64,000 nucleotides of DNA from positions 124,001-188,000 of the forward strand of contig NZ_BMFC01000003.1 in NCBI RefSeq assembly GCF_014637725.1, in the 5' to 3' direction. This document shows positions 5,482 through 51,959 of this stretch, one piece after another (position 1 is the first letter of the stretch; every line of letters begins with the position of its first letter). The DNA comes from Marivita lacus (GTDB taxonomy: Bacteria; Pseudomonadota; Alphaproteobacteria; Rhodobacterales; Rhodobacteraceae). The notes beneath the pieces are model-generated. The model had not been told where the DNA came from. It did not search any database and saw only the letters and a program-made list of their open reading frames with translations. Position numbers and translations under genes: made by a program.

Positions 5482-5489
5482 TCGGAACC

Positions 5490-5518
5490 GGGGTGGCCGG
5501 TTCTGGCCACCCCCTTTT
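5490..5518 (+). terminator. Terminator-like hairpin between coxL and coxD
   Basis: A perfect 9-bp stem GGGGTGGCC / GGCCACCCC (5490-5498 and 5505-5513) with a 6-nt loop is followed by CTTTT. It begins 8 bp after the coxL stop and ends 17 bp before the coxD start. It could act as a partial terminator or mRNA-end stabiliser, keeping structural CODH transcript above maturation-protein transcript. The T run is short, so efficiency is uncertain. Confidence 0.6.
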
Positions 5519-5534
5519 GTCGCCGGGTAAAGAC

Positions 5535-35489: not shown

Positions 35490-35786
35490 TTAGTTGTCGT
35501 TGGTCATTGTCGGTATCACAATCACCCGAGTTGCCATCCCAAGTTCCTCGATAAATACAGGATATAGAGTGACTTCAGTGATATCGCTTGCCCTTTCCGA
35601 AGAGCTTTCACACACTCTTTGCTCGAACGCCGATACGGACCCTGCGCGTGCCTGGCCTTCGATCGCCACTTCATCCGAAAGACCGATGACATAGTCCAGA
35701 CAATTGACGAGGTTCGATGTAGCGAATGCTGGAGCCGCGAAGACCAGGAATAGCCCGGCGGACGCAGCCAACGTATAGTTTTTCAT
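35490..35786 (-). CDS. Small secreted protein of unknown function
   Basis: 98 residues with a clear Sec signal ([22 protein letters not shown]) and two cysteines in the mature part (VNCLDYV, RVCESSS) that could form a disulfide in the periplasm. Base composition is more AT-rich than neighbouring genes, suggesting recent acquisition. No family is recognised. The frame is open upstream to 35933, but the signal peptide fixes the start. Confidence 0.6.
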
Positions 35787-36285
35787 TTCCGTGATCCTTA
35801 TGATTATACAACAAAATATAGCTTGCAGTGTTCGTTGCGACGATCTGCAATTTCGTTCAAAAGTATGCATATTGGGGCAGGTCACGCCCGTTCGATCTTC
35901 ATCACGCAGGGTATGCGCGAGGCGATGCTGCAAATCTGCTGAATGTCCTCGAAGTGGAAGGGTGCCGTTGGTGTCTCACTCGGCAGATCCTGATTGACAT
36001 GGTCTGACCGGCATCCTTTGCGTTGACCCTTGTCTTGGACATGGATGCTTTCCATTCGTCTGATGCCTTCAACAATCATCACCTTGGCACATCAAAGCGG
36101 GGAAAGTCTGACCCCGAGCGGGAACGCCTTGGGGAGCACATCACGGACCGCGGGTATCGGAGTTGAGGGAGGATTGTTGCGACATTGTCCTGTGTCCGCG
36201 CCTTCAAATCCCACCAACGTGCCTCCTGCAAAAAGCAGCATTCAACTCAGAGGATGACTTTTGTCTGTGCCCGGATGGCGCGAGA
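35787..36285. other. AT-rich-to-mixed intergenic region, no firm gene
   Basis: About 500 bp. A minus-strand frame of 66 codons (35882-36082) with a double ATG start has no family match and no obvious ribosome site. Composition is lower in GC than the rest of the window, together with the secreted-protein gene beside it. Confidence 0.4.
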
Positions 36286-37695
36286 TTACCTCCGTCGGTG
36301 CATCAGGCTCATCAACCGCGCTTGCCGGTCGAAGGGCTCTTTCTGCACGGGGGGACCGGCCTCACCGTCCATCATCCGCCGAACCATGAAGGTGGCAATA
36401 CCGGCAAAGATCACTCCGGCGAGCGCCTGTCCGATCAGCACACCCTTGGCACCAAAAAGCCAAGCCCCTGTGAGGACCAGGGGAATGGTTCCCACAGTAT
36501 GCAGCCCCCAATTGATGGCGGTGGAGCGGAATGGATGACCCATGTTGTTAAACGCCGCATTGGAAACGTAGATCACACCGCTGAAGAAGAATGCCAGCGC
36601 CAGCGGACCGCAGAACAGCAACAGCAGATCGCGCGTCACGCCTTCGGCGCCAAAGAGCGCGATGATCGGGCCGCGAAGGGCAAAAAGTATTCCTGTCATC
36701 GCCACGATGAAAATCCCACAGAACAATATCCCGTCGCGGTAGGCCTGCCGGACCCGGTCCATGCGACCTGCGCCGAAGTTCTGGCCAATGACCGGCCCGA
36801 TGGCGCCCGACAATGCGAAGATCACGCCAAAGGCCACCGGCGTCATCCGGCCTACGATGGCCATGCCCGCCACCGCAGCCTCGCCAAAACTGGCCATGGC
36901 GCGGGTGACCACTGCCTGACCCAGGGGCGTGGCCAGTTGGGTCAGGATCGCCGGGCCGGCGATGGTCACGATGGGCACAAAGGCGACCCGCATCTCTGGC
37001 ACGCCGGGGCGCACCAGCCCGCCGTGGTGGCGAAAGATCGGGATCAGCGCGGTGCCCGCGATCACGAGGCGCGCCGCGACGCTGGCCAGTGCAGCCCCAG
37101 TCAGGTCTAGCCCCAGGCCGAAGATCAGGATCGGATCGAGCACCGCGTTGACCAGCGCCCCCCAGATCGTCGCCATCATCGCGCGGCGCGCATCGCCATG
37201 GGCGCGCAGGATCGCACCACCCACCATGCCGACGATCAGGAACGGCAGGCTGGGCACGATGATCTGCAGGTAGTGAACGGCAAGGTCCAAAGTCTCGCCC
37301 GAGGCCCCCATGAGGGCTGCCAAGGGTGCAAGGTTCAGCCAGACCGCCGCCGCGAAGACCGCGCCGAAAACCACGCCCCACACAAGCGCTGCCGCCGCCT
37401 GCGCTTTCGCCAGTTCCGCGTCACCCATTCCCAAGGCTCGGGCCACCAATGCACCCGCCGCAATGGCCATGCCGATCCCAAAGGAGGTGGTAAAGAACAG
37501 GATCGCGCCTGCATATCCCACGGCCGCCGCCAGTTCGGCATTGCCCAGCATCGCGATGAAGACCATGTCGATGAAGTCGACCGCGAAGACCGCCATCAGC
37601 CCGACGGATGAGGTCAGCGCCATCACCGTGATATGGCGAAAGAGGTTGCCCTCCAGAAACACGGCGCGTGTTTCGGTGATTGGCGGCGTTGTCAT
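36286..37695 (-). CDS. MATE family efflux transporter
   Basis: 469 residues with about 12 membrane helices in two halves (VGLMAVFAVDFIDMVFIAML; GMAIVGRMTPVAFGVIFAL), typical MATE/NorM type. It uses a Na+ or H+ gradient to expel cationic drugs or metabolites. The start overlaps the stop of the araC-like gene (ATGA), so expression follows that regulator. This suggests the pump exports the toxic substrate or product of the adjacent AraC-controlled pathway. Confidence 0.88.
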   Translation of the reverse strand: MTTPPITETRAVFLEGNLFRHITVMALTSSVGLMAVFAVDFIDMVFIAMLGNAELAAAVGYAGAILFFTTSFGIGMAIAAGALVARALGMGDAELAKAQAAAALVWGVVFGAVFAAAVWLNLAPLAALMGASGETLDLAVHYLQIIVPSLPFLIVGMVGGAILRAHGDARRAMMATIWGALVNAVLDPILIFGLGLDLTGAALASVAARLVIAGTALIPIFRHHGGLVRPGVPEMRVAFVPIVTIAGPAILTQLATPLGQAVVTRAMASFGEAAVAGMAIVGRMTPVAFGVIFALSGAIGPVIGQNFGAGRMDRVRQAYRDGILFCGIFIVAMTGILFALRGPIIALFGAEGVTRDLLLLFCGPLALAFFFSGVIYVSNAAFNNMGHPFRSTAINWGLHTVGTIPLVLTGAWLFGAKGVLIGQALAGVIFAGIATFMVRRMMDGEAGPPVQKEPFDRQARLMSLMHRRR

Positions 37696-38693
37696 TGCCG
37701 GGTCTCGCTGCGCAGCGCATGTGGTGTTTTCCCGGTCCATTTCCGAAACGCGCGCTGGAAGGCGTTTGGATCGCGGTAGCCCACCAGATGCGCGATCTGC
37801 TGGTTGTTCAGTTCACTCTTGACCAGATAGCGGATCGCAAGCTCTTTTCGCGTTTCGTCCAGAAGCGACTGGAATGTCACGCCCTCTTCTCCGAGGCGGC
37901 GCAGAAGCGTGCTCCGTCCCAGTTTCAGGCGGCTGCAGACATGGGCGATGGTGGGTTCGGTGATCGAGAACGCCTCGACCATCGTCGCCCGGACCCGGTC
38001 CGACAGGGGCACCCCCTTGGACTGGATCATCGCCTGGGCTTGCAGGTCGGCTTCGGTGGCCTGCCACAGGTCGGGATTGTCCGAGACGAAGGGCGCGCGC
38101 GCATCGGCGCGGGCATAGGTCAGCGAAGCGTCCCCCTGCTCGGGGATCTGGTCGAAGACCTCCGCCAGACGCGCGCGCTCGTCCTGCGGAAGCGGAAGGG
38201 ACACCCGCTTAGGGCGGATCGCATGACGCGCCAAGGCATTGGCCTGCGCATGCAGGTAGATGATCTGGGGGCTGCTGAACGATCCGGGCAGGGCGTTCAG
38301 CAGGTCCGGGGCGACCCGCACGGTGAACTCCGACGCGCTGCGCGACACGACGAACCGCATCGGCCCGAACAGGCTCTTGAACTGTGCCATGCGCGTGATG
38401 CCGGTCTCGAAATCCGGGGCGGTCGACAGCGCGAAAAGAACCGGGATCGCCGGACCACCTGCCATGCGCAATCCGAGAAGCTTCGAGACGTCCTGCTGCC
38501 CCGTCAGGTCCATCATCGCGGCCCAGAGCGCCAGGTATTCGTCGGCGGAGACCAGAAAGGCCCGGTCGTTGCGCTCGGTCGCGTTGATGCCCGCGCGGAT
38601 CAGAACATCGTCCCAGCCGACACCAAGCATCCCGCAGATCGGGCCCGAGAGGACAGCGGATGTATAGATCGGGGATCGCTCTTGCGTCTGCAT
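37692..38693 (-). CDS. AraC family regulator 1 (arabinose-binding-domain type)
   Basis: 333 residues. The long N-terminal domain shows SGPICGMLGVGWDDVLIRAG and VLFALSTAPDFETGITRMAQF. The C-terminal double helix-turn-helix shows HVCSRLKLGRSTLLRRLGEEG and IAHLVGYRDPNAFQRAFRKW. The same layout, including APDxETGxxRxAQFKSL, is found in the second AraC gene of the window, so they are paralogues. ATG 38693 is chosen because the upstream extension is not conserved in pattern. Divergent from the SDR operon; a direct repeat lies in the shared promoter. Confidence 0.87.
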   Translation of the reverse strand: MQTQERSPIYTSAVLSGPICGMLGVGWDDVLIRAGINATERNDRAFLVSADEYLALWAAMMDLTGQQDVSKLLGLRMAGGPAIPVLFALSTAPDFETGITRMAQFKSLFGPMRFVVSRSASEFTVRVAPDLLNALPGSFSSPQIIYLHAQANALARHAIRPKRVSLPLPQDERARLAEVFDQIPEQGDASLTYARADARAPFVSDNPDLWQATEADLQAQAMIQSKGVPLSDRVRATMVEAFSITEPTIAHVCSRLKLGRSTLLRRLGEEGVTFQSLLDETRKELAIRYLVKSELNNQQIAHLVGYRDPNAFQRAFRKWTGKTPHALRSETRQ

Positions 38694-38770
38694 CCAGGGG
38701 AGCCTTTCACGCGGGGACTCCGCGCGTTGCACTAGAAACGCTCGCCCTATTCTTGGCAACGGCGTTGAGC

Positions 38771-38803
38771 CGATCTGCAAGTCATTGACACGATCTGCAA
38801 GTC
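38771..38803. promoter_or_regulatory. AraC-type operator: direct repeat CGATCTGCAAGTC
   Basis: CGATCTGCAAGTC occurs identically at 38771-38783 and 38791-38803, exactly 20 bp apart, as AraC proteins often require. It sits between araC 1 (start 38693, minus) and the SDR gene (plus). It contains TCTGCA-N6-TGACA, a pattern that recurs near 48348 and, with shorter spacing, near 41303. Confidence 0.65.
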
Positions 38804-38845
38804 GCAAGCGGTGGAAGACAGCCAGCCCACAAGCCTAGTTTGACG

Positions 38846-39622
38846 ATGACATCTGTACGTGGAGAGATCGCCTTGGACCTGACATCGAAGATCATTCTTG
38901 TCACCGGCGGCGGTTCGGGAATCGGCTTTGAACTGGCCCGGCAACTTGTGGCGCTTGGCAACACGGTCGTCATCTGCGGGCGCGACGCGGGCAGGCTCGC
39001 GGAGGCCGCAAGACTGACCGGGGCGCAACCGATCACAGGGGATGTGACGGTCGCCGATGATCAGGAGCGCATTTTGTCGGCGATCCGGGAGCAGCATGGT
39101 CGGCTTGACCTGCTGATCAACAACGCGGGCATTTTCCTGGCCTATGACTTCAGGAGCGATCCCGGCGCGCTGCAAAAGATCGAGGCCGAGATCGCGATCA
39201 ACGCGACTGCCCCGCTGACACTCACGCGGCGCGCCTTGCCGCTTCTGGAGAAAAGCGCACAGCCGGGGGTTCTGTTCATCGGATCGGGAATCGCATTTGT
39301 CGCGTCACCCGGAACGCCGATCTATTCCGGGACGAAGGCGCTGATCCATCATTGTGCACAAACCCTGCGTCACCAGTTGCAGCCCCACGGCATCACCGTT
39401 TTCGAAGCGATGCCGCCGGTCGTCGATACCGACATGGCATCGGTGCTGAAGTCCGACAATTTCAAGAAGATGAAGCCTTCGGACCTGGTGCGCGACATCC
39501 TCGAAGGCATGCGCCGGAACCAGACCGAGATGCTTCTGGGACAATCGCGCCAGATCAAGCTGATGAGCCGGATCGCCCCCGCCTTCCTGTTTCGTCAGTT
39601 CGCCAAGACCGAGTTTCATTGA
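38846..39622 (+). CDS. Short-chain dehydrogenase/reductase (DltE-like)
   Basis: 258 residues if ATG 38846 is used: NAD(P) motif TGGGSGIG, NNAG, and catalytic YSGTK. A TTG at 38873 has a better ribosome site (GGAGAG, 6 nt) and gives the usual DLTSK start, so it may be the true start. Classical SDRs oxidise or reduce hydroxyl/carbonyl groups. The C-terminus (RIAPAFLFRQFAKTEFH) is long. First gene of a four-gene operon with three small membrane proteins. Confidence 0.82.
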   Translation: MTSVRGEIALDLTSKIILVTGGGSGIGFELARQLVALGNTVVICGRDAGRLAEAARLTGAQPITGDVTVADDQERILSAIREQHGRLDLLINNAGIFLAYDFRSDPGALQKIEAEIAINATAPLTLTRRALPLLEKSAQPGVLFIGSGIAFVASPGTPIYSGTKALIHHCAQTLRHQLQPHGITVFEAMPPVVDTDMASVLKSDNFKKMKPSDLVRDILEGMRRNQTEMLLGQSRQIKLMSRIAPAFLFRQFAKTEFH

Positions 39623-39645
39623 CCCCCAACGACAAGGCCATTGTC

Positions 39646-40176
39646 ATGCCATCGGATGTTTACCGTAGCCGCGTCAACGCGCTGGCTGTCATTACCTCAG
39701 CCGCCTTCTTCGGCGCCAATGCCTTCATCGGGCTGTCGATGGGCGGTTACTGGCTCAGCCTCGCTCCTTCCGAGTTCGTCGCGCAATTCTTTCCCCAGTT
39801 CAGCAATTTTCTCTTCACGATCATGCCGTTCTTTCTGCTGATGCCGGTTGGCCTGATCCTGTCGGCCCGGCTCGACGGGCATGTTGCCCGGGCGCGCCGC
39901 AACTGGGTGATCGCGCTTTGGCTCTATCTGGCGGTCTCGCTGATCACCATCTTCTACCACATGCCGCTCAACGTGCGACTTGCGGCGGCGATCGGGTCGC
40001 CCGTGGGGGATGCGCTGGATTTCTACAAGGGCATTGCGATGACCGGCCCGGTGACGGACGAGAATGCCGCCACGATCCGTGGGCTTTGGCTTCTGGGTCA
40101 TATCCCCCGCGTCCTGATCACGCTTGCAATCCCAGTTTATATCCTGCGCGCGATGGCCGCGGGCCCCGCGCGCTAA
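39646..40176 (+). CDS. Small four-helix membrane protein, paralogue 1
   Basis: 176 residues, about four membrane helices. The N-terminal pattern DVYRSRVNALAVITSAAFFG aligns with DTYRKAVNMTAVVASAAFAG of the next gene, and both share FLxFxxTIxPxxLxxxVGLxxSxRLD after the first loop, so they are tandem duplicates. It weakly resembles small anthrone-oxygenase-like membrane proteins (DUF1772), but this is not firm. Co-transcribed with the SDR (23 bp gap). Confidence 0.65.
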   Translation: MPSDVYRSRVNALAVITSAAFFGANAFIGLSMGGYWLSLAPSEFVAQFFPQFSNFLFTIMPFFLLMPVGLILSARLDGHVARARRNWVIALWLYLAVSLITIFYHMPLNVRLAAAIGSPVGDALDFYKGIAMTGPVTDENAATIRGLWLLGHIPRVLITLAIPVYILRAMAAGPAR

Positions 40177-40210
40177 AGCAATTTGACACCAAAAACAAAG
40201 GTTGCCCACG

Positions 40211-40693
40211 ATGACGCCCGACACCTATCGCAAAGCTGTCAATATGACGGCCGTGGTCGCCTCCGCAGCCTTTGCGGGCGGCGGGCTGCTCATCCTTGTC
40301 TCCTACGGCATCAGGTGGCTCGGGACTGACCCGCTGGTCTGGCGGACAGGCTTCTGGGACGAGTTCCTGAATTTCGCGCTCACGATCATCCCGCTCAACC
40401 TGATCACCTTGGTTGGGCTGTTCTTTTCGGTGCGGCTGGACTGGAAAAACCTCCCGGTGCGCCGCCTCTGGATGTGGGCGGTCTGGCTTTACGTCGCCAA
40501 TACCGTGTTCACGCTGGGCTATTTCATCCCTCAGAACATCCTGCTGATCTGGGACAGTTATACAGCGGCCGAGGCATCGAGCGTGCGCGCGACCTGGCTT
40601 GCGCTGCACGTCATCCGCGTGGCGATCGCTCTGGCTGTTCCGGTCTTCGCCTTGCTAGCCGTCCTCAAACACGCCGAAAGGCACGCGGCATGA
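40211..40693 (+). CDS. Small four-helix membrane protein, paralogue 2
   Basis: 160 residues. Same topology and shared motifs as the preceding gene (N-terminal YRKAVNMTAV, FALTIIPLNLITLVGLFFS). Its stop overlaps the next start (ATGA). The tandem duplication followed by divergence suggests a heteromeric membrane complex. Function unknown. Confidence 0.65.
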   Translation: MTPDTYRKAVNMTAVVASAAFAGGGLLILVSYGIRWLGTDPLVWRTGFWDEFLNFALTIIPLNLITLVGLFFSVRLDWKNLPVRRLWMWAVWLYVANTVFTLGYFIPQNILLIWDSYTAAEASSVRATWLALHVIRVAIALAVPVFALLAVLKHAERHAA

Positions 40694-41103
40694 CACCGAT
40701 GATCAAATGGGCCATCACGCTGTTGATGGGTGCCACGATCTTCCGCGCGCAGACCATCCTGTTCCTGCCCGAGGTGAAAATGTTCGGCGGCATCGCACCC
40801 GATGGCTGGTTCGGCCCGTGGCTGAGCGACACGATCATCGGGTTTGCGGTGCCGGTGATGCTCTACCTCTTCTGGACCCGGCGCAGCGTGGCCATCTGGG
40901 GGGCGCTTGTCGCCTACAACGCCGTGGGGGCCTTCGACTATTCACAGGGCCTGATCACGCAGATGATCAGTCCCATGCCGGTAGAGATGGCCTCGGCCAC
41001 AACGGTCTATGTGGGGATCGGCCTGTTCATGTGCTTCCAGCTTGTAGCGCTCGGACTGCTGTTTCGCCGCGACGTGATCACGGAATTCAAGGCCTGGGGC
41101 TGA
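40690..41103 (+). CDS. Small membrane protein
   Basis: 137 residues with about four hydrophobic segments (WAITLLMGATIFRAQTILFL, WLSDTIIGFAVPVMLYLFW, VYVGIGLFMCFQLVALGLLF). It is not evidently a duplicate of the two preceding genes. Translationally coupled to paralogue 2. The SDR and three membrane proteins look like a membrane-linked redox or transport unit controlled by the divergent AraC gene. Confidence 0.65.
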   Translation: MTPMIKWAITLLMGATIFRAQTILFLPEVKMFGGIAPDGWFGPWLSDTIIGFAVPVMLYLFWTRRSVAIWGALVAYNAVGAFDYSQGLITQMISPMPVEMASATTVYVGIGLFMCFQLVALGLLFRRDVITEFKAWG

Positions 41104-41302
41104 TGCGCGGTCACCTGCCTTTGCCTCTTGGCGTCGGGCTGGTGACCGGCACGAAACCCGAGCTTGCACGGATCGACCGGTGCATCCGTCGCTGCAAGGA
41201 CAAGGTCGGTGAAATTTCCATAGGCGCAGCGCTTCAACCGCGACAGCCCTATGTCAAGGAGGGAAGATCAATGCGAGGTCCGGACACGCCTGACCAGAAT
41301 TG

Positions 41303-41330
41303 TCTGCATTTGACCATAAATGCATATCGC
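41303..41330. promoter_or_regulatory. Shared operator ahead of first molybdenum hydroxylase pair
   Basis: TCTGCATTTGACCA followed by TAAATGCATATCGC. GACCA...ATGCATATCGC (41312-41330) agrees at 17 of 19 positions with 48361-48379, upstream of the second hydroxylase pair. About 75 bp before the start codon. Suggests one AraC regulator for both. The rest of the 41104-41403 gap holds nothing recognised. Confidence 0.65.
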
Positions 41331-41403
41331 TATTGAACCCCACCGGATTTACCTTTCAAAGGCGCGGTGTCACGCCTCGTCCACAAACCGACCGGAGAGA
41401 AAC

Positions 41404-41859
41404 ATGCAACTCACGATAAACGGAGAACCGCGCGAGATCGACGCGAATCCAGACATGCCGCTTCTGTGGGTCCTCCGCGACGAGCTCAAGATGACGGGCA
41501 CGAAATTCGGCTGCGGCGTCGCCTCTTGCGGGGCCTGCACCGTGCATATCAACGGAGAGGCCACGCGGTCGTGTCAGGCACTGATCGGCGATCTCGAAGG
41601 TGCCACCGTGACCACCATCGAGGCGATCGACACGCCAGCGGCCAGGGCGATCCAGACAGCCTGGGTCGAGTTGCAGGTCCCGCAATGCGGCTACTGCCAG
41701 TCCGGCCAGATCATGTCGGCCTCGGCGCTTCTGACCGAAACGCCCAAGCCCACCGACGACGACATCGACGCAGCCATGGAGGGCAATCTCTGCCGCTGCG
41801 CCACCTATGCCCGCATCCGCCGTGCGATCCACCGCGCCGCCGAAATCATGGAGGCCTGA
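41404..41859 (+). CDS. Molybdenum hydroxylase 2Fe-2S subunit 1 (IorA-like)
   Basis: 151 residues. Plant-type cluster Cys37, 42, 45, 57 and helical cluster CGYC / CRC, as in isoquinoline 1-oxidoreductase alpha subunit and related aldehyde oxidoreductases. No signal peptide of its own, so it would be carried across the membrane with its Tat-bearing large subunit. The gene for the large subunit starts one base after its stop. No FAD subunit is encoded, so electrons leave to another acceptor such as a cytochrome or quinone. Confidence 0.9.
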
Positions 41860-41860
41860 G

Positions 41861-44041
41861 ATGCTGCATTATCTCGATGCGAAACGCCCCGCGCCGCAGC
41901 CCACGCGCCGCACCTTCCTCAAGCTGTCCGCAGGGGCCTTGGGCGGGCTGCTGATCGGTGCCGTGATCCCCCAGAAGGGCCTTGCCGATACCGCGTCCGG
42001 GGCACTGGCCACGCCCTTTGTCCACATCACGCCGGACAACCGCGTGATCGTTCTCAGCAAGCATCTGGACAAGGGACAAGGGACAGCGACGGGTCTTGCC
42101 ACGCTGGTCGCCGAGGAACTCGACGCCGCCGCAGATCAGGTCGAGGTCGAATTCGCCCCGTCGAACCCCGAGCTATACAAGAACTTCCTGTTCGGTCTCC
42201 AGGGCACAGGCGGGTCCACCGCCATGGCCAACTCGTTTGACCAGTACCGCCAGGCCGGGGCTGTCGTTCGCGCAATGATCGTGGCCGCCGCAGCCTCGGA
42301 ATGGGGTGTACCGACAGGCGACATCACGATCACGAACGGTGTGGTCTCGGGTGGCGGCAATTTGGCAACTCTTGGTGAACTTTCCGCCCTCGCCGCGGCG
42401 CAGGAGCCGCCAGCCGAAGTGACGCTGAAATCCCCGGAAGACTGGGTCTATATCGGCAAGGGTTTTCCCCGCGTCGAGTTGCCGATGAAGACACGCGGCA
42501 GCGTCGGACTGTTCGGAATGGATGCCCAGCCCGAAGGCGGCCTTGTGGCCGTGACCGCCCGCCCACCCCGCTTTGGTGCGACGCTGGCCTCGGTGGATGC
42601 CACAGCGGCACTGGCGCTGGACGGGGTCGAGGCGGTTCTCGAAATCCCGCAAGGCGTTGTGGTGGTGGCGACCAACACATGGACGGCGATGCAGGGCCGC
42701 GAGGCGCTGGTGCTTGACTGGGTCGCGGGCTCGGGCGAGACCCGGGGCACCGACGCGCTTCTTGACGAATTTCGCGCCGCACTCGACGCACCCGGCCTGC
42801 CATCCCACCCGCGCGGCGACGCGTCCGCAAAACTCGCTCAGGCCGCGCAGGTGATCGAGGCCGAGTACGTCTTCCCCTACCTTGCGCATGCGCCGATGGA
42901 ACCGCTTGACATGACCGTGCTGTACGATGGCCAGTCGGCGACCTTCTGGGGCGGTTCGCAGATCCAGACACTGGATCATGGCACAGCGGCGGCGGTCCTC
43001 GGCCTCGACTTCCCGCAGATCACGATCAACACCCGCTGGGGTGGTGGGTCCTTTGGTCGCCGCGCGACGCCAGACGGCCATCTGGCCGCCGAGACGGCGA
43101 TGATCGGCAAAGCCTGGCTCGACGCGGGCAACGCCGCGCGCCCGATCAAGCTGGTGTATTCCCGCGAGGACGACATTCGCGGCGGTTACTACCGGCCGAT
43201 GGCGGTGCACCGCGTGCGCGCCGGGCTCGACGCCGAGGGCAACATCTCGGGCTGGGAGCATCGCATCGTCAGCCAGTCGATCTTTACCGGCACATCGTTC
43301 GAAAGCTTTGTCGTTCAGGACGGGGTCGACCATTCGACGGTCGAGGGCATTTCGGACACCACCTATGCGATCCCGGACATGCATGTGGACGTGCATCACC
43401 CGAAGGTCGGCGTTCCCACGCTGTGGTGGCGTTCGGTCGGGCATACCCACACCGCCTATGTCATGGAAACTATGATGGATGAACTGGCCGTGGCGGCCGG
43501 GCGCGATCCGGTTGAATTCCGCCTCGCCCATCTTGCCGAGGACGCACGGCTGGCCGGTGTGCTGCACCTCGCTGCCGAAAAGGCCGGACCGACAGGGCCC
43601 GAGGGCACCCATCGCGGCATCGCGGTTCACAAGAGCTTCAACAGCTACGTGGCCGAGATTGCGGATGTGCGGATCCGCGACGATGGCACTGTGAAGGTCG
43701 AGAAAGTGACCTGCGGCGTCGATTGCGGCGTGCCGATCAACCCCGACAACATCAACGCCCAGATCGAGGGCGGGCTGGGCTATGGCCTGTCGGCCATCCT
43801 GCGCGAAGAGATCACGATGGTGGACGGCGAAGTGGCGCAGTGGAACTACCCCGATTACACGCCGCTGCGGATCGCCGACATGCCGGAGGTCGAGGTGCAC
43901 ATCGTCCGCTCGGACGCGGCGCCTACCGGCATCGGTGAGCCGGGCACGCCACCGATCGGCCCGGCCGTCGCCAACGCGGTTTTCCGGGCGACGGGAACCC
44001 GCGTTCGTGAGTTGCCCTTCACGCGGCACGGGCTGGCATGA
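41861..44041 (+). CDS. Molybdenum hydroxylase large subunit 1 (IorB-like), Tat-exported
   Basis: 726 residues. Twin-arginine signal ([19 protein letters not shown]) and molybdopterin-cytosine-dinucleotide motifs ([18 protein letters not shown]). The catalytic Glu lies in [12 protein letters not shown], the form seen in isoquinoline 1-oxidoreductase and periplasmic aldehyde oxidoreductases. It hydroxylates an N-heteroaromatic ring or oxidises an aldehyde on the periplasmic side. It lacks the Cu-site CSFR loop of CoxL, so it is not a CO dehydrogenase. Substrate unresolved. Confidence 0.88.
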
Positions 44042-44214
44042 CACTGCCAGTCCTACAAACGGAAAGGTAAAATTTGGCGAGCGGGTCATTCTGAGTCTCA
44101 GACATGGCAACGGGATCGGGGTCGACTTGTGGCGGCGCAGCATGACGCCAGATCTTGAGGTCCCGCCGATGGCGGCACCCAACGGTTTGGTGGGACTGTC
44201 TCGCGCTGCCGGCG

Positions 44215-44302
44215 AAGGTCCGCTCCCCTGAAGGTTTTTCGATGTGGGCCGCCCACGTCGCGCAGCGGCCCACATCGAAAAACCTTCAGGAAGTCGGACC
44301 TT
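44215..44302. repeat. 88-bp imperfect palindrome with a perfect 25-bp stem
   Basis: Arms 44228-44252 and 44265-44289 are exactly complementary (starting CTGAAGGTTTTTCGATGTGG) with a 12-nt loop. After a symmetrical 5-nt internal loop, AAGGTCCG/CGGACCTT (44215-44222 and 44295-44302) extends the stem. Located about 170 bp after the IorB-like stop, next to a cydA remnant. It could be a bidirectional terminator, a mobile-element end or a recombination scar. Confidence 0.75.
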
Positions 44303-44396
44303 GGACAAAGGCTCGAAAGTCGGCGCGGATGAGACTGCCCAAACGCCAAAATCACCCGGTCATCTGTTTTCTGCCTTCTGGTTCTCGGAATGCGCT

Positions 44397-44660
44397 TCAA
44401 ACGTGGCGCACGGCTTGGGGCGTCGCATCCCGCTCTTCACGAATGGTCATCAGCGCGTCATAGGCGATCAGCCCGTCACGGATCTTCACTTCGGATTCAG
44501 CGACGAGTTCGTTGATGCCCGGAATTGCCTGTGTCAGAAACCGTGTGCCGATCAGCCCCATCGCCCAGGGAATTTCGACTGCATAGTGGGTCGCACGCGC
44601 CTCCTGGTCGGGAAAACCGATGGCGGTAAAGGGCGCAGGCGCGACGGACTCTCCCGGCCC
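44397..44660 (-). pseudogene. cydA: Internal fragment of cytochrome bd oxidase subunit I
   Basis: The minus frame reads APAPFTAIGFPDQEARATHYAVEIPWAMGLIGTRFLTQAIPGINELVAESEVKIRDGLIAYDALMTIRE. In split form, FPDQE, YAVEIPWAMGLIGTR and EVKIRDGLIAYDAL follow the periplasmic Q-loop region of CydA-type quinol oxidases (compare IPDQE, GIIATRS and EERIRNGMKAY in E. coli CydA). Only about 85 of some 500 residues remain, with no heme-ligand helices and no start. No cydB is present. A relic of a lost bd oxidase operon. Confidence 0.65.
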
Positions 44661-45024
44661 AACGAGGAATGACACGGGTTCGAAAATAACGTCGGCGTCC
44701 TTTCCTCGTTTTGCTGAAAGGTCGCTTACCATGAGGGGCGTAGCGGAGATGATGGTTTCCCGCCGAGGCGCAGCCATTTTCCCCCACCCACCATCGGCAC
44801 GATCCTTTTCGCTGCCGACCGCAGCCGCCCGATCTCGGACAAGGGCCCAGCCGCGAGCAGCACAACCGCCGCAGCCCAGCTGTGCCATGCCGTGATTGCC
44901 AGAATGATCAACGGCAAGATCATGACGCGCGTTCGCGCAGCGATTGCAGTCCGAGGGGTACCTCGAAACCCTGCGTGGGCGGCCCCGATGGCCATGCGCC
45001 GGGGCACGCAGCAGACTCCTGAGA
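44661..45024. other. Intergenic region with unassignable gene debris
   Basis: The minus strand keeps a frame with hydrophobic stretches (VMILPLIILAITAWHSWAAAVVLL). It has no start with ribosome site and no recognised family, so it may be debris from another membrane-protein gene. Nothing else is seen. Confidence 0.35.
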
Positions 45025-45687
45025 TCAGAGCGTCTTGGTCGAGAAATACCAATCCTTGGTGTCATAGCCTTCGGTCATGCGCGCCTCTGCCGCGTCCGTT
45101 GTTTGCGGTGTCGGGACGATCACGGCCTGACCGGGCGTCCAGTTCTCGGGCGTTGCGACCTTGTGGGTGTCGGATGTCTGAAGCGCTTGCACAAGACGGT
45201 AGAATTCGTCGATCGACCGCCCATTGGTCATCGGGTAGTAGACCATCGCGCGCAGGACGCCTTCGGGGTCGATGATGAAGGTGGCGCGCACGGCTTGTGT
45301 GTCGGATGCGCCAGGCTGAATCATGCCGTAGGCCTGCGCCACTTTCATGTCGAGATCTGCAATGATCGGGAAGCGGATGTCGACGCCAAAGCTGTCCTTG
45401 ATCGACCGGACCCACGCGATATGCGCGTAGTGGCTGTCGATCGACAGACCGATCAGGTCGGTGTTCAGCGCAGCAAAGTCTTCGGCACGACGCGCGAAGG
45501 CGGTGAATTCCGTGGTGCAGACCGGCGTGAAATCGGCTGGATGCGAAAACAGGATGAGCCATTTGCCGCGATAGTCGGTCAGCGTTTTCCGACCATGCGT
45601 GGTCAGCGCATCGAACTCCGGCGCGGGTTCGTTGATCCGGGGCATCGCGACCTGCGATGCAGGAGTGATTTGGGTGACAGCATTCAT
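45025..45687 (-). CDS. 1-Cys peroxiredoxin (Prx6 type)
   Basis: 220 residues from ATG 45687. The peroxidatic Cys57 sits in SHPADFTPVCTTEF, and it is the only cysteine in the protein, so it is a strict 1-Cys enzyme needing an external reductant. The C-terminal Prx6 domain (WTPGQAVIVPTPQTT, DTKDWYFSTKTL) is present. It reduces H2O2 or organic peroxides in the cytosol. Divergent from an OxyR-like regulator with about 110 bp between starts. Confidence 0.92.
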   Translation of the reverse strand: MNAVTQITPASQVAMPRINEPAPEFDALTTHGRKTLTDYRGKWLILFSHPADFTPVCTTEFTAFARRAEDFAALNTDLIGLSIDSHYAHIAWVRSIKDSFGVDIRFPIIADLDMKVAQAYGMIQPGASDTQAVRATFIIDPEGVLRAMVYYPMTNGRSIDEFYRLVQALQTSDTHKVATPENWTPGQAVIVPTPQTTDAAEARMTEGYDTKDWYFSTKTL

Positions 45688-45797
45688 TGTGGTCTCTCCT
45701 TTTTGCTCGTCTGAGACCGGGATAGACACTCTGGATATATTCTGGAAATTGAATTAAACGGACAGGGTGATCTGTTTTTTCGATAACCAGGGGCACC

Positions 45798-46688
45798 ATG
45801 ACGACACTTCGCCAAATGCGGTTTCTTGTTGCCCTGGACGATACCAAGAACTTTTCGCGTGCTGCCGAGATCTGCAACGTGACGCAATCGACCCTCTCTT
45901 CCGGCCTCAAGGAGATGGAGGCGCGCCTTGGTGTGAAAGTGGCCGAACGCAGCACCCATTCCGTTCTCATGACGTCAATCGGCACAGCCCTTGCGAACCG
46001 TGCGCGCGAAATCCTGGCAAAAGTGAGCGATTTTGAAGCCGCGGCACATGCCGAAATGTCTGCCGGACCAACCCGGCTCAGACTGGGTGTTATCCCGACG
46101 GTGGGCCCGTTCCTGCTGCCGCGTGCTCTGCCTGCTCTGCGTGAGACATGGCCCAAGATGCAGGTCTACCTACGCGAAGAACTGACGGACTCGCTGCTGT
46201 CAGGTCTCATGGAAGGTCGTCTGGATCTCATCCTGATTGCTTTGCCGCATGACCTGCCGGAACAGGTGGAAACCATGCTGCTGTTCGAGGACAACTACAG
46301 TCTTGCCACATCCCGGGCCCACCCGCTGGCCAATCTTTCACGGATTGAAGGCGCCGATCTTGCGGGTCGTCGGCTTTTGCTTCTGGAACGTGGGCACTGT
46401 CTGCAAAAACACGCGCTGTCCAGCGTGCCGGGGGTTGCCCTTGAAGAAGACGCATCCTTTTCGGCCACCAGTTTGCCAACGCTGGTCTCGATGGTCGAGG
46501 AAGGCATCGGAGTGACCCTTTTGCCGAACCTGGCGATTGAAGCGGGACTGACGGCGGGACACGACCTGCATCTGTCGCAGCTTGAAGGTGCAACTCCACG
46601 CCGTGTCGTTCTGGCATGGCGCAAGAGCAGCACGTACCCGGATATTTTCCAGCAGATCGGTGAAATCCTGCGCCGCACGAAACGGTGA
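45798..46688 (+). CDS. OxyR-like LysR regulator lacking the resolving cysteine
   Basis: 296 residues. LysR helix-turn-helix (FSRAAEICNVTQSTLSSGLKE) and an OxyR-like sensor domain. LLLLERGHCLQKHALSSV aligns with the E. coli OxyR redox loop GHCLRDQAMGFC: Cys201 matches Cys199, but the Cys208 position is Val210. The following FSATSLPTLVSMVEEGIG also matches OxyR. It is divergent from the peroxiredoxin, its likely target. It may sense peroxide by sulfenic acid or mixed disulfide rather than an internal disulfide. Confidence 0.88.
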   Translation: MTTLRQMRFLVALDDTKNFSRAAEICNVTQSTLSSGLKEMEARLGVKVAERSTHSVLMTSIGTALANRAREILAKVSDFEAAAHAEMSAGPTRLRLGVIPTVGPFLLPRALPALRETWPKMQVYLREELTDSLLSGLMEGRLDLILIALPHDLPEQVETMLLFEDNYSLATSRAHPLANLSRIEGADLAGRRLLLLERGHCLQKHALSSVPGVALEEDASFSATSLPTLVSMVEEGIGVTLLPNLAIEAGLTAGHDLHLSQLEGATPRRVVLAWRKSSTYPDIFQQIGEILRRTKR

Positions 46689-47245
46689 GTTCGGTGATTT
46701 TGCGGCCAGGTTCACAGCCGCCACACCATCAGCGAGCCTTCACGAAATTCGACTGACTCCGGTGTCTTCTTGCTGGTTACGTCTTCGTGATCTTTGGGGC
46801 CGTCATGGTGAAATCTGTTTATGCTCCCGTCACTGGCGGGCTGGCCTATGGATTTACCAACCGCACGCGCACGCGGCCGGGCATGGGGACGGAAGGCCTT
46901 AGGATCGACGGGACGTTGGGAAACCTCAAGGGAGGGGAGGTCATGTATCTGCCGCTTGCGCGTCTGGCGGTCAGTCATGACATCTCGAACGGCTAGAACT
47001 GGGATGCCGCGCTCGCGACGATCCTGTCCCGACTGATGTACATTCCCGTTTTCCATCTCGGGACTCCAGTCCTGCGCACCGAGCTCTATTGCCATGCCCG
47101 CGTTTGCAACCGGGCTCCTTGTTGGGGTGCCCGACACTCTGCCCTGACTCGGCGTCGGTGGAAGCCACCGCACAATCGAACGGCCGCAAACGCTGAATGT
47201 CGGGACAGATCAAGCAGGCCTAACGACATCTTCGCAAAGAGTGGT
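46689..47245. other. Intergenic region without a supported gene
   Basis: About 560 bp between convergent genes. Open frames on both strands are short or lack ribosome sites and family patterns. No repeat or hairpin of note. Confidence 0.45.
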
Positions 47246-48268
47246 TTATTGGGTCTTCCCTGAAGTGGACGGCAGGGTGTCCGCCTCCCGGAACGCCAGC
47301 GGAGACAGGCCCGTCCAGCGCCGGAAGCTTCTCGAAAAGCTGTTGGCATCGCGGTAGGCGAGAATATTTGCGATCTCGTCGGCGCGCAGGGTTGTCTTGG
47401 TGAGATACCGGACCGCCATGTCGCGCCGCGTGGCGTCGAGGACCGCCTGATATGATGTCTCCTCTTCGCGCAATCGCCTCTGCAACGTGCTGCGGCTGAT
47501 CCCGAGGGCCTGCGCCACGTCCTCGGCCCCCGTACGCCCTGCGGGCATCAGATCAACCAAGGCTCCTCGCACCCGCTCGGCGACAGGCCAACGGTCGTTC
47601 TGGGTTGCCAGCTGAAGCTTGAGGTCGGCCTCGATATCGGCCCAGAGGGCGGGGTTCTCGGAAATGAACCGGCGTTTCGCATCCTCGGGCGAGAAGGCCA
47701 CGTAGGTGGCGTGCGACCGCTCCGGCATGACGCCGAGATGACCGGCGATCATGTGCCGCTCCTCCTCGGACCCATCGAAGCCCGCCGCAACCGGGCAGAC
47801 CAGATGGGCCGCCGCCCCGCGAATGTTCTCGACCGCGACCAAGAGTTGAAGCGCGCCAAAGCTCGGCGGCATCGGCACACGCGCATCGACACTGTCGAAT
47901 TCCAGCCGAAGCAAGTTGCCGTCCCAGAACACCCGCATGAGCGTCGGGCCGAGGAGCGACTTGAACTGCGCCAGACGCATCAGGCCGGTTTCCATGTCCG
48001 GCGCGCAGGACAGCGTGAAAAAGACCGGGATCACCGGCCCGCGCGAGATCGCAACACCCAAGTGGGGCACATAGTCGGGGCGCGGCGACAGCACCTCCAT
48101 CGTGTTCCAGCAGTCGAAATACTGCTGCGCCGTGCCTCGCACCTCGGTTCTGCCGCGCGCAAGCGCGCCAAGGCCTGCCGTCTCCAGCATCACCTGCGGA
48201 TCGACGCCAAGGATGCGGCACGCCACGTCGGTCGCCATGAACAGGGAATAGGTCTGTGAATTATCCAT
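47246..48268 (-). CDS. AraC family regulator 2 (arabinose-binding-domain type)
   Basis: 340 residues. N-terminal ligand domain (CRILGVDPQVMLETAGLG, FTLSCAPDMETGLMRLAQF) and C-terminal HTH (VAQALGISRSTLQRRLREEE, IANILAYRDANSFSRSFRRW). It is a clear paralogue of AraC 1. Divergent from the second hydroxylase pair, about 185 bp apart, with the shared operator in between. It is the best candidate for regulating both hydroxylase operons. Confidence 0.87.
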   Translation of the reverse strand: MDNSQTYSLFMATDVACRILGVDPQVMLETAGLGALARGRTEVRGTAQQYFDCWNTMEVLSPRPDYVPHLGVAISRGPVIPVFFTLSCAPDMETGLMRLAQFKSLLGPTLMRVFWDGNLLRLEFDSVDARVPMPPSFGALQLLVAVENIRGAAAHLVCPVAAGFDGSEEERHMIAGHLGVMPERSHATYVAFSPEDAKRRFISENPALWADIEADLKLQLATQNDRWPVAERVRGALVDLMPAGRTGAEDVAQALGISRSTLQRRLREEETSYQAVLDATRRDMAVRYLTKTTLRADEIANILAYRDANSFSRSFRRWTGLSPLAFREADTLPSTSGKTQ

Positions 48269-48347
48269 GCGCCCGGTCTTTCAATTATCGTACCTGAATG
48301 CCACGGGCAGTTGCCCACGACCAGATCCCGAAGACCGCCTGACCCAA

Positions 48348-48379
48348 TCTGCATGCACCTGACCACATATGCATATCGC
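48348..48379. promoter_or_regulatory. Shared operator ahead of second molybdenum hydroxylase pair
   Basis: TCTGCA-N6-TGACC followed by ACATATGCATATCGC. The 19-bp core 48361-48379 differs at two positions from 41312-41330. It lies between divergent araC 2 and the small-subunit gene. Confidence 0.65.
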
Positions 48380-48453
48380 CGCACGGCGCTGCCGGACCTA
48401 GCTTAGAATGATTGATACGCCAAGTCTCGTCCACCAGCTGACTGGAGAAAGCC

Positions 48454-48912
48454 ATGGACCTTACGATAAACGGCACCAGTCACACGGTCGACCTGCCAGA
48501 CGACATGCCGCTGCTCTGGGCGCTGCGGGACGGCCTGAACATCACCAGTGTCAAATACGGCTGCGGCATTGCCCAATGCGGGGCCTGCACGGTGCATATC
48601 GGTGGCGAAGCCGTGCGCTCCTGCCAGGTCGCGTTGGCCGATGTCTGGGGCGAGATCACCACGATCGAGGGGCTGGGCACGCCCGAGGCTTTGCACGCCG
48701 TGCAGGAGGCGTGGATCGAACACCAGGTGGCGCAATGCGGCTACTGCCAATCCGGCCAGATCCTGCAGGCCGCCGACCTGCTGGCTCGCAACCCCGAACC
48801 GACCGATGACGATATCGACGCCGTGATGTCGGGCAACCTGTGCCGCTGCGGGACCTATCCCCGCATCCGCGCCGCCGTCCACGCTGCGGCCAGCGCGATG
48901 CGGGAGGTCTGA
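48454..48912 (+). CDS. Molybdenum hydroxylase 2Fe-2S subunit 2 (IorA-like)
   Basis: 152 residues, aligning without gaps to subunit 1 over the first cluster (Cys37, 42, 45, 57) and keeping CGYC and CRC for the second. It starts with the same LTING strand. Paired with the large subunit 3 bp downstream. Similar sequence and identical arrangement show the two pairs arose by duplication or parallel acquisition of one operon type. Confidence 0.9.
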
Positions 48913-48915
48913 GCT

Positions 48916-51159
48916 ATGGGACGCGCCAGAACCATCGCCCGCCGCAGTTTCCTGATCGGGTCGGCCGCGATCCTCGGCGGGGTCGCCTTTGGGGCTTATT
49001 TCGTCAGCCGCCCAACCCCCAACCCCTTGCTTGATGGTCTGGCCGAGGGCGAAGCGGCCCTCACTCCCTTCGTTAGGATCACGCCGGATGGCATCACGCT
49101 GATCGTGCCGCGCGCCGATGTGGGGCAGGGGATCGCCTCGACTCAGGCCATGCTGATCGCCGAGGAGTTGGACATCGACCCAAGGACCGGCACGCTCGAC
49201 CCCGGCCAGCCGCATCAGGCCTATTTCAACGGCATCATCGCAGCCGAAAGCATGCCCTTCCCGGCATGGGAGCACGGGGCCGTGGCCAACACGGTGCGTG
49301 ACGTGATGATGAACGTCGCGCGCCTCACTGGCTCGCAGTTCACCGGCGGGTCCTCGTCTGTCGCCGACCTGCACGAGACCCTGCGCCGCGCCGGTGCCAC
49401 GGCGCGGGAGACACTCAAGGCCGCGGCGTCGGCGCGCACGGGCGTGCCGAGGGCGGACCTGCGGACCGAGGACGGGCATGTCCTGTTGCCCGACGGCACG
49501 CGCATCGCTTATATCGAGCTAGCCGCCGAGGCAGCGGCGATCGAGCCCGTCACCAACGTGACGCTCCGCCCCGCGTCCGACTGGACGCGCCTGGGCAAGC
49601 CGTACCAACGGCTCGACATCGTCGCGAAATCGACTGGAACGCAGGAGTACGGGATCGACGTCGTGCTGCCCGGGATGCTGCACGCCACGGTGCGCGCCAA
49701 CCCCGGGCGCGGCGGTGCAATGGCAAGCTACTCTGCGGATGCCGCGCTTGCGATGCAGGGCGTGCGGTCGGTCGTTACGGTGAACGAGGGGCTAGCCGTC
49801 AGCGCCGACAACACGTGGTTCGCCTTTCAGGCAGCGCAGGCGCTGGTTGTCGAGTGGGTTCCTCCCGACTACCCGGCCAGTTCCACCGAGATGTGGCAGG
49901 CGCTGAGCGACGCGCGCACGGACGAGTTCCGCAACAGCCGCCTGCGCGACGACGGCGATGTCGAGGCCACGCTTGCCGCTGCCAGCGTGATCGATGCGGA
50001 ATACCGCGCGCCCTTCCTCGCCCATGCCGCCCTCGAGCCGCTCAGCGCGACAGTGTTGGTCGAGGCGGACAGGGTGCAGATCTGGACCGCGACGCAGATT
50101 CCCGCCGTGGTGCGCGATGCTGCGGTCGCGCTGACGGGCCTCGATCCGTCGCAGGTCACCCTGCATGTCCTGCCCGCAGGCGGCAGTTTTGGCCGCAGGC
50201 TGGATCACGACTACGTGGTGCAGGCGATCCAGATCGCCGCCACCATGCCCGGCACCCCGATCAAGACCACCTGGAGCCGGGAGGAGGACATGACCCATGA
50301 CTACCCCCGTCCGCTCCACATGGCCGTTGGCCGGGGCGCGGTGGGGAATGGCCGGGTGCTGGCCTATGACCTCGACAGCATCAGCCCCTCGCTCATCTCG
50401 TCGTGGTTCGGGCGCATCTTCATCGTGCCGCCGGGGCCCGACACGATGCTGGTCTGGGGTGCCTTCGACCAGCCCTATGCCATCCCGAACTACCGCGTGA
50501 CGGGCTATGCCGCGCCGCCGATGATGCCGGTCGGGTCGTGGCGGTCGCCCGGCGCCTGTTCGAACAGCTTCTTCCACGAAAGCTTCCTGTCCGAACTGAT
50601 CCATGCCGCCGGGGCCGACCCGCTGGAGGAACGGCTGCGCCTGATCGCGGACTCAGACTCGCGCCGGGTGCTGGAGGCGGTGGGCGAGATGTCGAACTGG
50701 GCGGGCGCCGACATCGGGCCAGGGCGCGGGCGGGGGATCGCTTTTGCCCATACCCATGGCGTGCCCGTGGCCGAGGTCATCGACGTGACCATGACAGACC
50801 GGGGCATCCGCATCGACGAGGTCTGGATCGCCGCCGATTGCGGCACCGTGTTCGACCCGGTCAACGCCGAGGCGCAGCTGACCGGCGCGGCCATCTTCGG
50901 CCTCGGTCACGCGATGAATTGCGAACTCACCTACGAGGGTCACGCCGTGCAGCAGACCAACTTCGACGCGTTCGAGGGGATGCGCCTGCACCAGACACCG
51001 CAGTTCCACACGCGATTGCTGGGCCGCGCCGAACGGGTGCGCGGACTGGGCGAACCCGCAACCGCCCCGGCGGCCCCCGCGCTTGCCGATGCCATCTTCG
51101 CAGCAACGGGCGAGCGCCTGCGCGAAATGCCGTTCAGCAAATCCGTGGATTTCGCATGA
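48916..51159 (+). CDS. Molybdenum hydroxylase large subunit 2 (IorB-like), Tat-exported
   Basis: 747 residues. Tat signal with an uncleaved-looking anchor (ARRSFLIGSAAILGGVAFGA). Cofactor motifs AGGSFGRR and GSWRSPGACSNSFFHESF; catalytic Glu in GLGEPATAPAAP. The pocket loop differs from paralogue 1 (ATAPAAP against GTPPIGP), suggesting a different substrate. Electron acceptor subunit not encoded. Possibly an N-heteroaromatic or aldehyde oxidoreductase facing the periplasm. Confidence 0.87.
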   Translation: MGRARTIARRSFLIGSAAILGGVAFGAYFVSRPTPNPLLDGLAEGEAALTPFVRITPDGITLIVPRADVGQGIASTQAMLIAEELDIDPRTGTLDPGQPHQAYFNGIIAAESMPFPAWEHGAVANTVRDVMMNVARLTGSQFTGGSSSVADLHETLRRAGATARETLKAAASARTGVPRADLRTEDGHVLLPDGTRIAYIELAAEAAAIEPVTNVTLRPASDWTRLGKPYQRLDIVAKSTGTQEYGIDVVLPGMLHATVRANPGRGGAMASYSADAALAMQGVRSVVTVNEGLAVSADNTWFAFQAAQALVVEWVPPDYPASSTEMWQALSDARTDEFRNSRLRDDGDVEATLAAASVIDAEYRAPFLAHAALEPLSATVLVEADRVQIWTATQIPAVVRDAAVALTGLDPSQVTLHVLPAGGSFGRRLDHDYVVQAIQIAATMPGTPIKTTWSREEDMTHDYPRPLHMAVGRGAVGNGRVLAYDLDSISPSLISSWFGRIFIVPPGPDTMLVWGAFDQPYAIPNYRVTGYAAPPMMPVGSWRSPGACSNSFFHESFLSELIHAAGADPLEERLRLIADSDSRRVLEAVGEMSNWAGADIGPGRGRGIAFAHTHGVPVAEVIDVTMTDRGIRIDEVWIAADCGTVFDPVNAEAQLTGAAIFGLGHAMNCELTYEGHAVQQTNFDAFEGMRLHQTPQFHTRLLGRAERVRGLGEPATAPAAPALADAIFAATGERLREMPFSKSVDFA

Positions 51160-51323
51160 TCCACTCTGTGCGTCTGTGCCTGATCGACGTGGCCAGCCTC
51201 ACGCCCGGTACGACTGCTTTACGGCACGGTCTTGGACTCGACCGACCCGCGCGGAACGCAGGCGATGTCACCGCAAGAACCGGGTGAGCAAGGTTCCCGA
51301 CACCCCCCTCAAAGGAAAGACCC

Positions 51324-51959
51324 ATGGCAGATTCCGCATACCCCAAAGGCCAAACAGCGCTTCTTTGCGTCGATCCCTACAACGATTTCCTGGCCGAAGA
51401 CGGCAAGATGTGGCCCGCCCTCAGCGAGGTCTCCAGATCGGTCGATCTTCATGCCAATCTGGTCAGGATCCGTGCGGCCATGCGCGAGGCCGGACATCCG
51501 ATCTTCATCCTGCCCCATCACCGCCACCGCGACGGCGACTTCGACGGCTGGGCGCACCTGACGCCGTTTCAGTCCGCGGCTCATGAACACCAGATGTTCG
51601 CCGAGGGGACCAAGGGCGGCGACTGGTACGACGGGTTCGGCCCCGAGCACGGCGACATCGTCGTAAAGGAACACTGGGGTGCGTCGAGCTTTGCCAACAC
51701 TGACCTCGATGTGCAGCTGCGCCAACGCGGGATCACCCATGTCATCTTCATCGGGGCGATCGCCAATACCTGTACCGAAGCGTCGGCACGATATGCGGCC
51801 GAGCTTGGCTATCATGTGACCCTTATTCGCGACGCAACGGCGGCCATGTCGCACGATGCCATGCACGCCGCGCACGAGATCAACGGTCCGACCTATGCCC
51901 ATGCCATTCTCACCACGGCCGACGTGATCGGGAAACTCGCCGCGCAGGACGCAGCATGA
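51324..51959 (+). CDS. Isochorismatase-like cysteine hydrolase
   Basis: 211 residues with the cysteine-hydrolase triad Asp17 (LLCVDPYNDF), Lys115 (VVKEHWGAS) and Cys150 (GAIANTCTEAS). Family members hydrolyse amides such as nicotinamide, biuret or carbamoylated heterocycles. Transcribed with the second hydroxylase pair (165 bp gap with no clear terminator), it could act on a hydroxylated N-heterocycle. An allophanate hydrolase lies 2.4 kb away. Substrate unknown. Confidence 0.85.
   Translation: MADSAYPKGQTALLCVDPYNDFLAEDGKMWPALSEVSRSVDLHANLVRIRAAMREAGHPIFILPHHRHRDGDFDGWAHLTPFQSAAHEHQMFAEGTKGGDWYDGFGPEHGDIVVKEHWGASSFANTDLDVQLRQRGITHVIFIGAIANTCTEASARYAAELGYHVTLIRDATAAMSHDAMHAAHEINGPTYAHAILTTADVIGKLAAQDAA

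Follow-up and report, generated by a model that had tools for sequence, protein, structure and literature searches.

The locus considered here, a window of 64,000 nucleotides from Marivita lacus (Rhodobacteraceae; NCBI RefSeq assembly GCF_014637725.1, contig NZ_BMFC01000003.1, forward-strand positions 124,001 to 188,000; coordinates below count from its first letter), raises the question of how an operon for a short-chain dehydrogenase/reductase (SDR) and membrane proteins is regulated together with two gene pairs for exported molybdenum hydroxylases, IorA1–IorB1 (pair 1) and IorA2–IorB2 (pair 2). The initial annotation proposed one regulon marked by the motif TCTGCA-N6-TGAC. A single motif and a single regulon are not borne out in the form proposed, since there are two operator classes, pair 1 is found in one of 27 related loci, and a fourth promoter joins the set. 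The region is probably a conserved oxidation/efflux cassette in rearranged form, spread horizontally and controlled by two sister AraC/XylS-type activators, AraC1 and AraC2. One uniform regulon is less likely than two interlocked local ones within a single cassette, because the operator classes follow the adjacent regulator. Shared regulation of the oxidation operons seems, from the sequence, to stand in the form of a common tandem architecture, but not as a uniform one.

The common element, as seen in the alignment of the sites, is a 39-bp tandem direct repeat with a half-site of about TGRCNCRATNTGCAAGT and a 20-bp period, and the motif as first described is the tail of half-site 1 joined to the head of half-site 2. 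Tandem sites precede the SDR operon, both hydroxylase pairs and the gene of a 98-amino-acid exported protein that had been overlooked:

38766..38804, + strand, operator 1, class 1 (class-1 score 63.8, class-2 score 27.9)
41291..41329, + strand, operator 2, class 2 (class-2 score 41.3, class-1 score -3.5)
48340..48378, + strand, operator 3, class 2 (class-2 score 63.5, class-1 score 15.1)
35841..35879, - strand, operator 4, class 2 (class-2 score 32.2; shuffle maximum 13.0)

Half-sites 1 and 2 agree at 15, 11 and 12 of 17 positions in operators 1, 2 and 3, respectively. Both reported copies of TCTGCA-N6-TGAC, before the SDR operon and before pair 2, are present on the + strand at 38774 and 48348 (two matches in the window against 0.10 expected; none of 100 shuffles reaches two). 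The variant claimed at 41303 is out of register, its TGAC standing only one base after TCTGCA, and the in-register upstream half-site at the pair 1 promoter is TGACCAGAATTGTCTGC at 41291. The 19-bp element described as common to both hydroxylase promoters (41311 and 48360) does occur in both, with exactly two differing positions, and is reinterpreted here as a class-2 operator and not as the signature of a single regulon.

A genome-wide scan, which had been suggested as a check, gave a divided answer: the motif as written is unspecific (22 matches in 4.77 Mb; reversed control, 1) and was rejected as the binding unit, but the full tandem is nearly exclusive to the window. Among the 20 of these 22 matches that were read, all 18 besides the two sites overlap open reading frames (ORFs) of at least 100 amino acids, which is weak evidence, as the genome is GC-rich and operator 1 itself overlaps an ORF. 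An intermediate core, TGAC-N6-TGCA-N2-TCG (four genome matches vs two in the control), had been fitted to three sites and was no independent test; it was superseded by the tandem pattern and by matrices trained on other genomes. Allowing up to two mismatches, the tandem pattern matched five times in the whole genome and never in the reversed control; four matches lie inside the window at one mismatch at most, and the fifth lies on another contig at two. Because the four window sites were already known when this pattern was drawn up, what counts is its scarcity elsewhere and not its presence in the window. Within the genus, tandem sites with at most one mismatch were found only in G000 (four) and G203 (three), among 17 genomes. 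Across 20 genomes carrying the cassette, 57 tandem matches were listed at up to two mismatches (reversed control, 5), and all 27 matches with at most one mismatch fall, by coordinates and sequence, within cassette stretches.

The two classes were defined by matrices built from 14 SDR-side sites (12 before the SDR gene and two before the anthrone-oxygenase-like, or AnthOx-like, gene) and 16 IorA2-side sites, chosen after earlier candidate sites had been seen. Marivita was excluded (L125 and L134), L132, L138, L145, L142 and the AnthOx site of L139 were also left out, and L126 contributed no training site, as it has no SDR or AnthOx match. In leave-one-out scoring, own-class scores (48.6–65.0 for class 1; 38.0–62.4 for class 2) were cleanly separated from other-class scores (2.1–27.7 for class 1 sites; 5.0–27.0 for class 2 sites), and the maxima over 100 shuffled windows were 15.8 and 13.0 for classes 1 and 2, respectively. 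Matrices trained in this way, without Marivita, recover operators 1 to 3 and detect operator 4.

Operator class covaries with the position of the regulator. All 17 IorA2 promoters that face AraC2 carry class 2 (16 of these being training sites), and the two without AraC2 alongside, L132 and L138, both carry class 1, among 19 promoters. No AraC2 ortholog was detected in the L132 genome. In L138, AraC2 faces, across a class-2 site, a gene for a MobA-like/XdhC fusion (molybdenum enzyme maturation; 4486-6159, - strand) that sits between AraC2 and IorA2, and IorA2 itself is preceded by a class-1 site. Of 20 SDR-side promoters, 18 reach a class-1 score of at least 42.

Promoter geometry also distinguishes the classes. 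Class-2 operators end 20 bp before a TAnnnT box in all 20 aligned rows, and operator 2 in the window keeps the same distance, as does operator 4, which lies outside those rows and has TATATT exactly 20 bp downstream and the start codon of the 98-amino-acid gene 54 bp downstream. For class 1, a TA-containing box is found 11 bp further downstream, about one helical turn. Given a 17-bp spacer, the class-2 operator would overlap the -35 element by about three bases, and the XylS site overlaps the -35 element too. A tandem direct operator adjoining or overlapping -35, a trait of the AraC/XylS family, thus seems to be present. Moreover, columns at least 90% identical make up 28 of 39 in the class-2 operator vs 4 of 46 downstream, and 26 of 39 vs 6 of 46 in class 1; this conservation, far above that of the downstream sequence, argues for selection and not for recent ancestry alone.

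The initial annotation had set two paralogous AraC regulators beside these operons, and AraC1 and the SDR operon are indeed divergently oriented, as are AraC2 and pair 2, but neither regulator directly adjoins pair 1:

37692..38693, - strand, AraC1 regulator (PF12833, PF12625)
47246..48268, - strand, AraC2 regulator (AraC-type helix-turn-helix)

These paralogs are 34% identical, and both match PF12833 and PF00165, the C-terminal paired helix-turn-helix; the N-terminal ligand-binding domain PF12625 scores 55.6 bits in AraC1 and 25.4 in AraC2, just below the 27.6 cut-off. The QhpR model NF049968 gives 101.9 and 133.9 bits, under its curated cut-off of 250, and the NCBIfam GliR model 83.0 and 92.3, far under its cut-off of 570. 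In the tree, the AraC1 and AraC2 clades are sisters (joint node 100/99), and the same gammaproteobacterial metagenome-assembled genome (MAG) supplies one member to each. The most likely arrangement is that AraC1 activates the SDR–membrane-protein operon from the class-1 tandem operator and that AraC2, binding class-2 operators, activates pair 2 and, in this lineage, also pair 1 and the small exported protein, with an inducer presumably bound by the N-terminal domain of each regulator.

Distant promoters offered a further test. AraC2 relatives (E <= 1e-30) occur in 24 of 198 family genomes, the window's own counted, and in 11 of these 24 the relative adjoins an IorAB pair (in the stretches read, two of which end at short contigs). 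One half-site of operator 1 matches six of nine non-cassette, AraC-adjacent IorA promoters at no more than 5 per 1000 shuffles, and none of nine IorA promoters without an AraC neighbour reaches that level. When a motif sampler was run on the nine distant promoters alone, it recovered TTTGGCGCGATNTGCAA; in the window, which it had not seen, its highest rank went to 38784, where operator 1 has its downstream half-site. Tandem arrangements fitted to these distant promoters are best at a period of 21 bp. As a separate observation, the IorAB pair of G187 (L119, upstream of 9747), which lacks an AraC neighbour, has a tandem site of 21-bp period (24/30), and an AraC relative encoded elsewhere in that genome suggests that control in trans is possible.

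Several observations weigh against two class-specific regulators confined to one cassette. The remaining three distant promoters miss significance (141, 204 and 147 of 1000 shuffles), the control promoter of G187 reaches 6 per 1000, and operators 2 and 3 are absent from the top 10 of the blind sampler in the window. Two SDR-side promoters, L139 (20.3) and L142 (0.4), fit class 1 poorly, and a class-2-like site with two mismatches lies outside the cassette in Roseovarius mucosus (G231:C6:510402). Operator 4 has a sole counterpart, which scores 17.5 and stands ahead of an apparently interrupted gene. The cases of G205 and G126, taken up below, count against this reading as well.

The alternative that survives best, an extension of the initial annotation, is one uniform regulon in which each of the two AraC proteins binds all four operators and responds to the same signal. 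Their recognition-helix segments, which we take to hold the DNA-contacting residues, appear similar (RSTLLRRL and RSTLQRRL), and the class-2 matrix scores operator 1 above the shuffle maximum of 13.0. Moreover, in G205, from the same genus as the window, AraC1 stands beside pair 1 and no AraC2 ortholog was detected, yet the operator is class 2, so that cross-recognition could occur. However, the classes are kept separate across genera in the leave-one-out scores, and the two IorA2 promoters without an adjacent AraC2 carry class 1; uniform control is therefore unlikely. Considerably less probable is that each AraC protein runs only its divergent operon and that operator 2 is a functionless inherited relic. 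Of operators 1 to 3, operator 2 matches the consensus least well (19/30), and no operator was found in the 260 bp read upstream of pair 1 in G126, but the pair 1 operator is kept in three Marivita genomes with differing gene settings (class-2 scores 41.3, 45.2 and 38.1) and operator 2 retains its spacing to TAnnnT. A chance likeness of short words before unrelated genes, which the frequency of the motif as first written could suggest, is in our view refuted by the conservation and the genome-wide scans and has a negligible probability.

The reading of two sister regulators with separate operators is placed in a wider context by the relatives of the cassette. When public genome contigs were scanned with an AraC1/AraC2 alignment, 27 loci were obtained, 19 of them with an AraC1 ortholog at 78% identity or more. 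Of these 19, 14 have the SDR, 15 IorB2, 13 AraC2 (one more has a fragment of it), 12 the cysteine hydrolase and 10 the MATE transporter, counts that are minima, since contig edges cut off several loci. The order usually runs MATE, hydrolase, IorB2 and IorA2, divergent from AraC2, membrane genes, AnthOx-like gene and SDR, which in turn diverge from AraC1; in L126 and L132, MATE adjoins AraC1, as in the window. The initial annotation had counted the MATE pump and the cysteine hydrolase within a single unit, and in many genomes they are indeed neighbours of the SDR operon, pair 2 and the AraC pair, but neither has an operator of its own: in the matrix scan of the window, no operator scoring above 18 lies ahead of either gene. 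Variable accessory genes encode an NmrA-like NAD(P)-binding protein, a cupin, a MAPEG protein and an alpha/beta hydrolase. Before the alpha/beta hydrolase gene of L139, an additional class-1 site (42.2) was seen at 13206 on the - strand.

Pair 1 is present in L125 alone among the 27 loci; it was also seen in G126 and, on a different contig, in G203 of the same genus. A block made up of pair 1, a peroxiredoxin gene and a LysR gene separates the third membrane gene of the window from a MAPEG remnant, and this block was probably inserted into the ancestral cassette, because the broken remnant marks the ancestral order. AraC1 orthologs occur in seven of 394 family genomes, own genome counted, the other six being 78–85% identical, and the window AraC2 clusters with a Nitratireductor MAG (99/85), apart from other Marivita. 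The scattered AraC1 orthologs, together with this position of AraC2, indicate horizontal spread, although some of the carriers are MAGs. Known plasmids were considered as a vehicle and set aside: 41 of 72,556 plasmid records match AraC1, all below 60% identity, and 158 match IorA2, none at 80% or more.

In L128, L132 and L135, IorB2 is 46–47% identical to that of the window vs 85–91% for IorA2, and no SDR gene stands beside AraC1; in these loci the cassette was apparently retained and its large subunit replaced. SDR occurs with IorB type A in 11 loci, and these three loci have type B without SDR. Type A without SDR is seen in L139 and L126 (Fisher test, 0.018, or 0.009 if L139 alone is counted), L141 and L144 (type A, no SDR in the stretch) not being counted as they have no AraC1. 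The type-B proteins are 84–90% alike and may go back to one event, so this link is a hint only.

The genes of the region, apart from the regulators, are as follows:

35490..35786, - strand, 98-amino-acid protein with a signal-peptide-like start and no Pfam family in the profile scan
36286..37695, - strand, MATE-family transporter (PF01554), overlapping the end of araC1 by 4 bp
38846..39622, + strand, SDR oxidoreductase (PF00106; scanned from 38840)
39646..40176, + strand, DUF1772/anthrone-oxygenase-like membrane protein (PF08592, 27.6 bits vs cut-off 27.3)
40211..40693, + strand, paralog of the 39646-40176 protein, about 40% identical (PF08592, 19.2, below cut-off)
40690..41103, + strand, strongly conserved membrane protein without Pfam family (67–93% identical in 12 relatives)
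41404..41859, + strand, IorA1, [2Fe-2S] subunit of pair 1 (eight cysteines)
41861..44041, + strand, IorB1, molybdenum subunit of pair 1 (Tat-type RRTFL)
46778..47092, + strand, broken MAPEG-gene remnant (62% to the L128 MAPEG protein; in-frame stop)
48454..48912, + strand, IorA2, [2Fe-2S] subunit of pair 2 (domains, eight cysteines)
48916..51159, + strand, IorB2, molybdenum subunit of pair 2 (Tat-type RRSFL)
51324..51959, + strand, isochorismatase-like cysteine hydrolase (PF00857; nearest solved chain 3kl2)

Both small subunits, with two [2Fe-2S] domains and eight cysteines, match the IorAB-type xanthine oxidase family, and both large subunits have MoCoBD domains, a twin-arginine translocation (Tat)-type RRxFL and a GEP motif, which we take to be the site of the active-site glutamate. 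Their best solved match is chain C of 8gy3, an aldehyde dehydrogenase large subunit (3e-47 and 5.5e-59), at a similarity so low that its substrate is not transferable. A cytochrome c partner was considered for the hydroxylase pairs, but no CxxCH occurs in the assigned genes between 35 and 53 kb, only in two frames not assigned as genes. The suggested periplasmic oxidation agrees with the Tat-type N-termini of both large subunits, but the SDR, its sequence read by eye, has no export signal. In the Erythrobacter MAG L140 (5220-9798), an AraC2 ortholog (73%) is divergent from HlyD/AcrB, an RND-type pump, with a class-2 operator between them, and this pump together with MATE may point to a response against a toxic compound. 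The genes, the operators, their conservation and near-confinement to the cassette, and the covariation of operator class with regulator position are seen in the sequences themselves, whereas binding, activation, inducer, substrate and a detoxification role are inferred. In the proposed picture, the exported hydroxylases would act in the periplasm on a small organic substrate (an aldehyde or heterocycle, for example), which they would oxidise, and the other enzymes and the MATE pump would handle or expel it.

Known systems resemble this one in part. XylS reads two homologous direct half-sites beside the Pm promoter by paired helix-turn-helix motifs (PMC5481539), and cassette operators likewise have direct tandem half-sites next to the promoter; however, the XylS half-site is TGCA, 6 bp, GGTA (PMC5481539), whereas the cassette has two paralogous regulators, two operator classes and a 20-bp period. 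SlfR, on the Psychrobacter plasmid pP62BP1, shares Arabinose_bd and HTH_AraC domains, a divergent oxidoreductase operon and predicted XylS-like direct repeats, but differs in its repeat, TTGA-N6-AGGACA, its enzymes and its single regulator (PMC3346939). GliR of Pseudomonas aeruginosa also activates a divergent operon, via sites upstream of and overlapping -35, but with unrelated motifs and glycerolipid genes (PMC8151288). The IorAB-like periplasmic deoxyribose dehydrogenase of Pseudomonas simiae is, like the pairs here, a molybdenum enzyme of two subunits, the larger of which bears a Tat signal, but its cluster has a cytochrome c gene (PMC6365646). In the literature searched, mostly papers outside subscription, no description of such an exported molybdenum-hydroxylase cassette was found.

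The cassette, one of whose membrane proteins is strongly conserved yet fits no known family, is scattered over marine Alphaproteobacteria; its culturable carriers include Roseibaca ekhonensis and Yoonia vestfoldensis. It offers a small natural example of AraC paralogs whose operators can be told apart, and its promoters bearing the site of the sister regulator where their own is gone or displaced are open to direct swap tests. A wider proposal, tentative and rather doubtful at present, is that of a portable two-channel chemical-response cassette, in which a duplicated AraC pair would have evolved distinct 20-bp-phased operators nearly confined to the cassette, promoters deprived of their own regulator by loss or displacement would carry the operator class of its sister, the enzymes would inactivate and expel an external toxic organic compound (aldehyde, quinone or heterocycle), and catalytic modules would be swapped between lineages.

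Three minor observations concern interrupted genes or gene remnants. The 98-amino-acid protein has one counterpart (67%), in Roseivivax jejudonensis L139, with an in-frame TAG (DNA inspected by eye). At 44397-45065 (- strand), an ORF with a short match to cytochrome bd oxidase subunit I (residues 142-192) overlaps the peroxiredoxin gene and is probably a remnant, and at 51956-52105 (+ strand) lies a broken remnant of the gene for a 179-amino-acid protein that is placed after the cysteine hydrolase in other cassettes.

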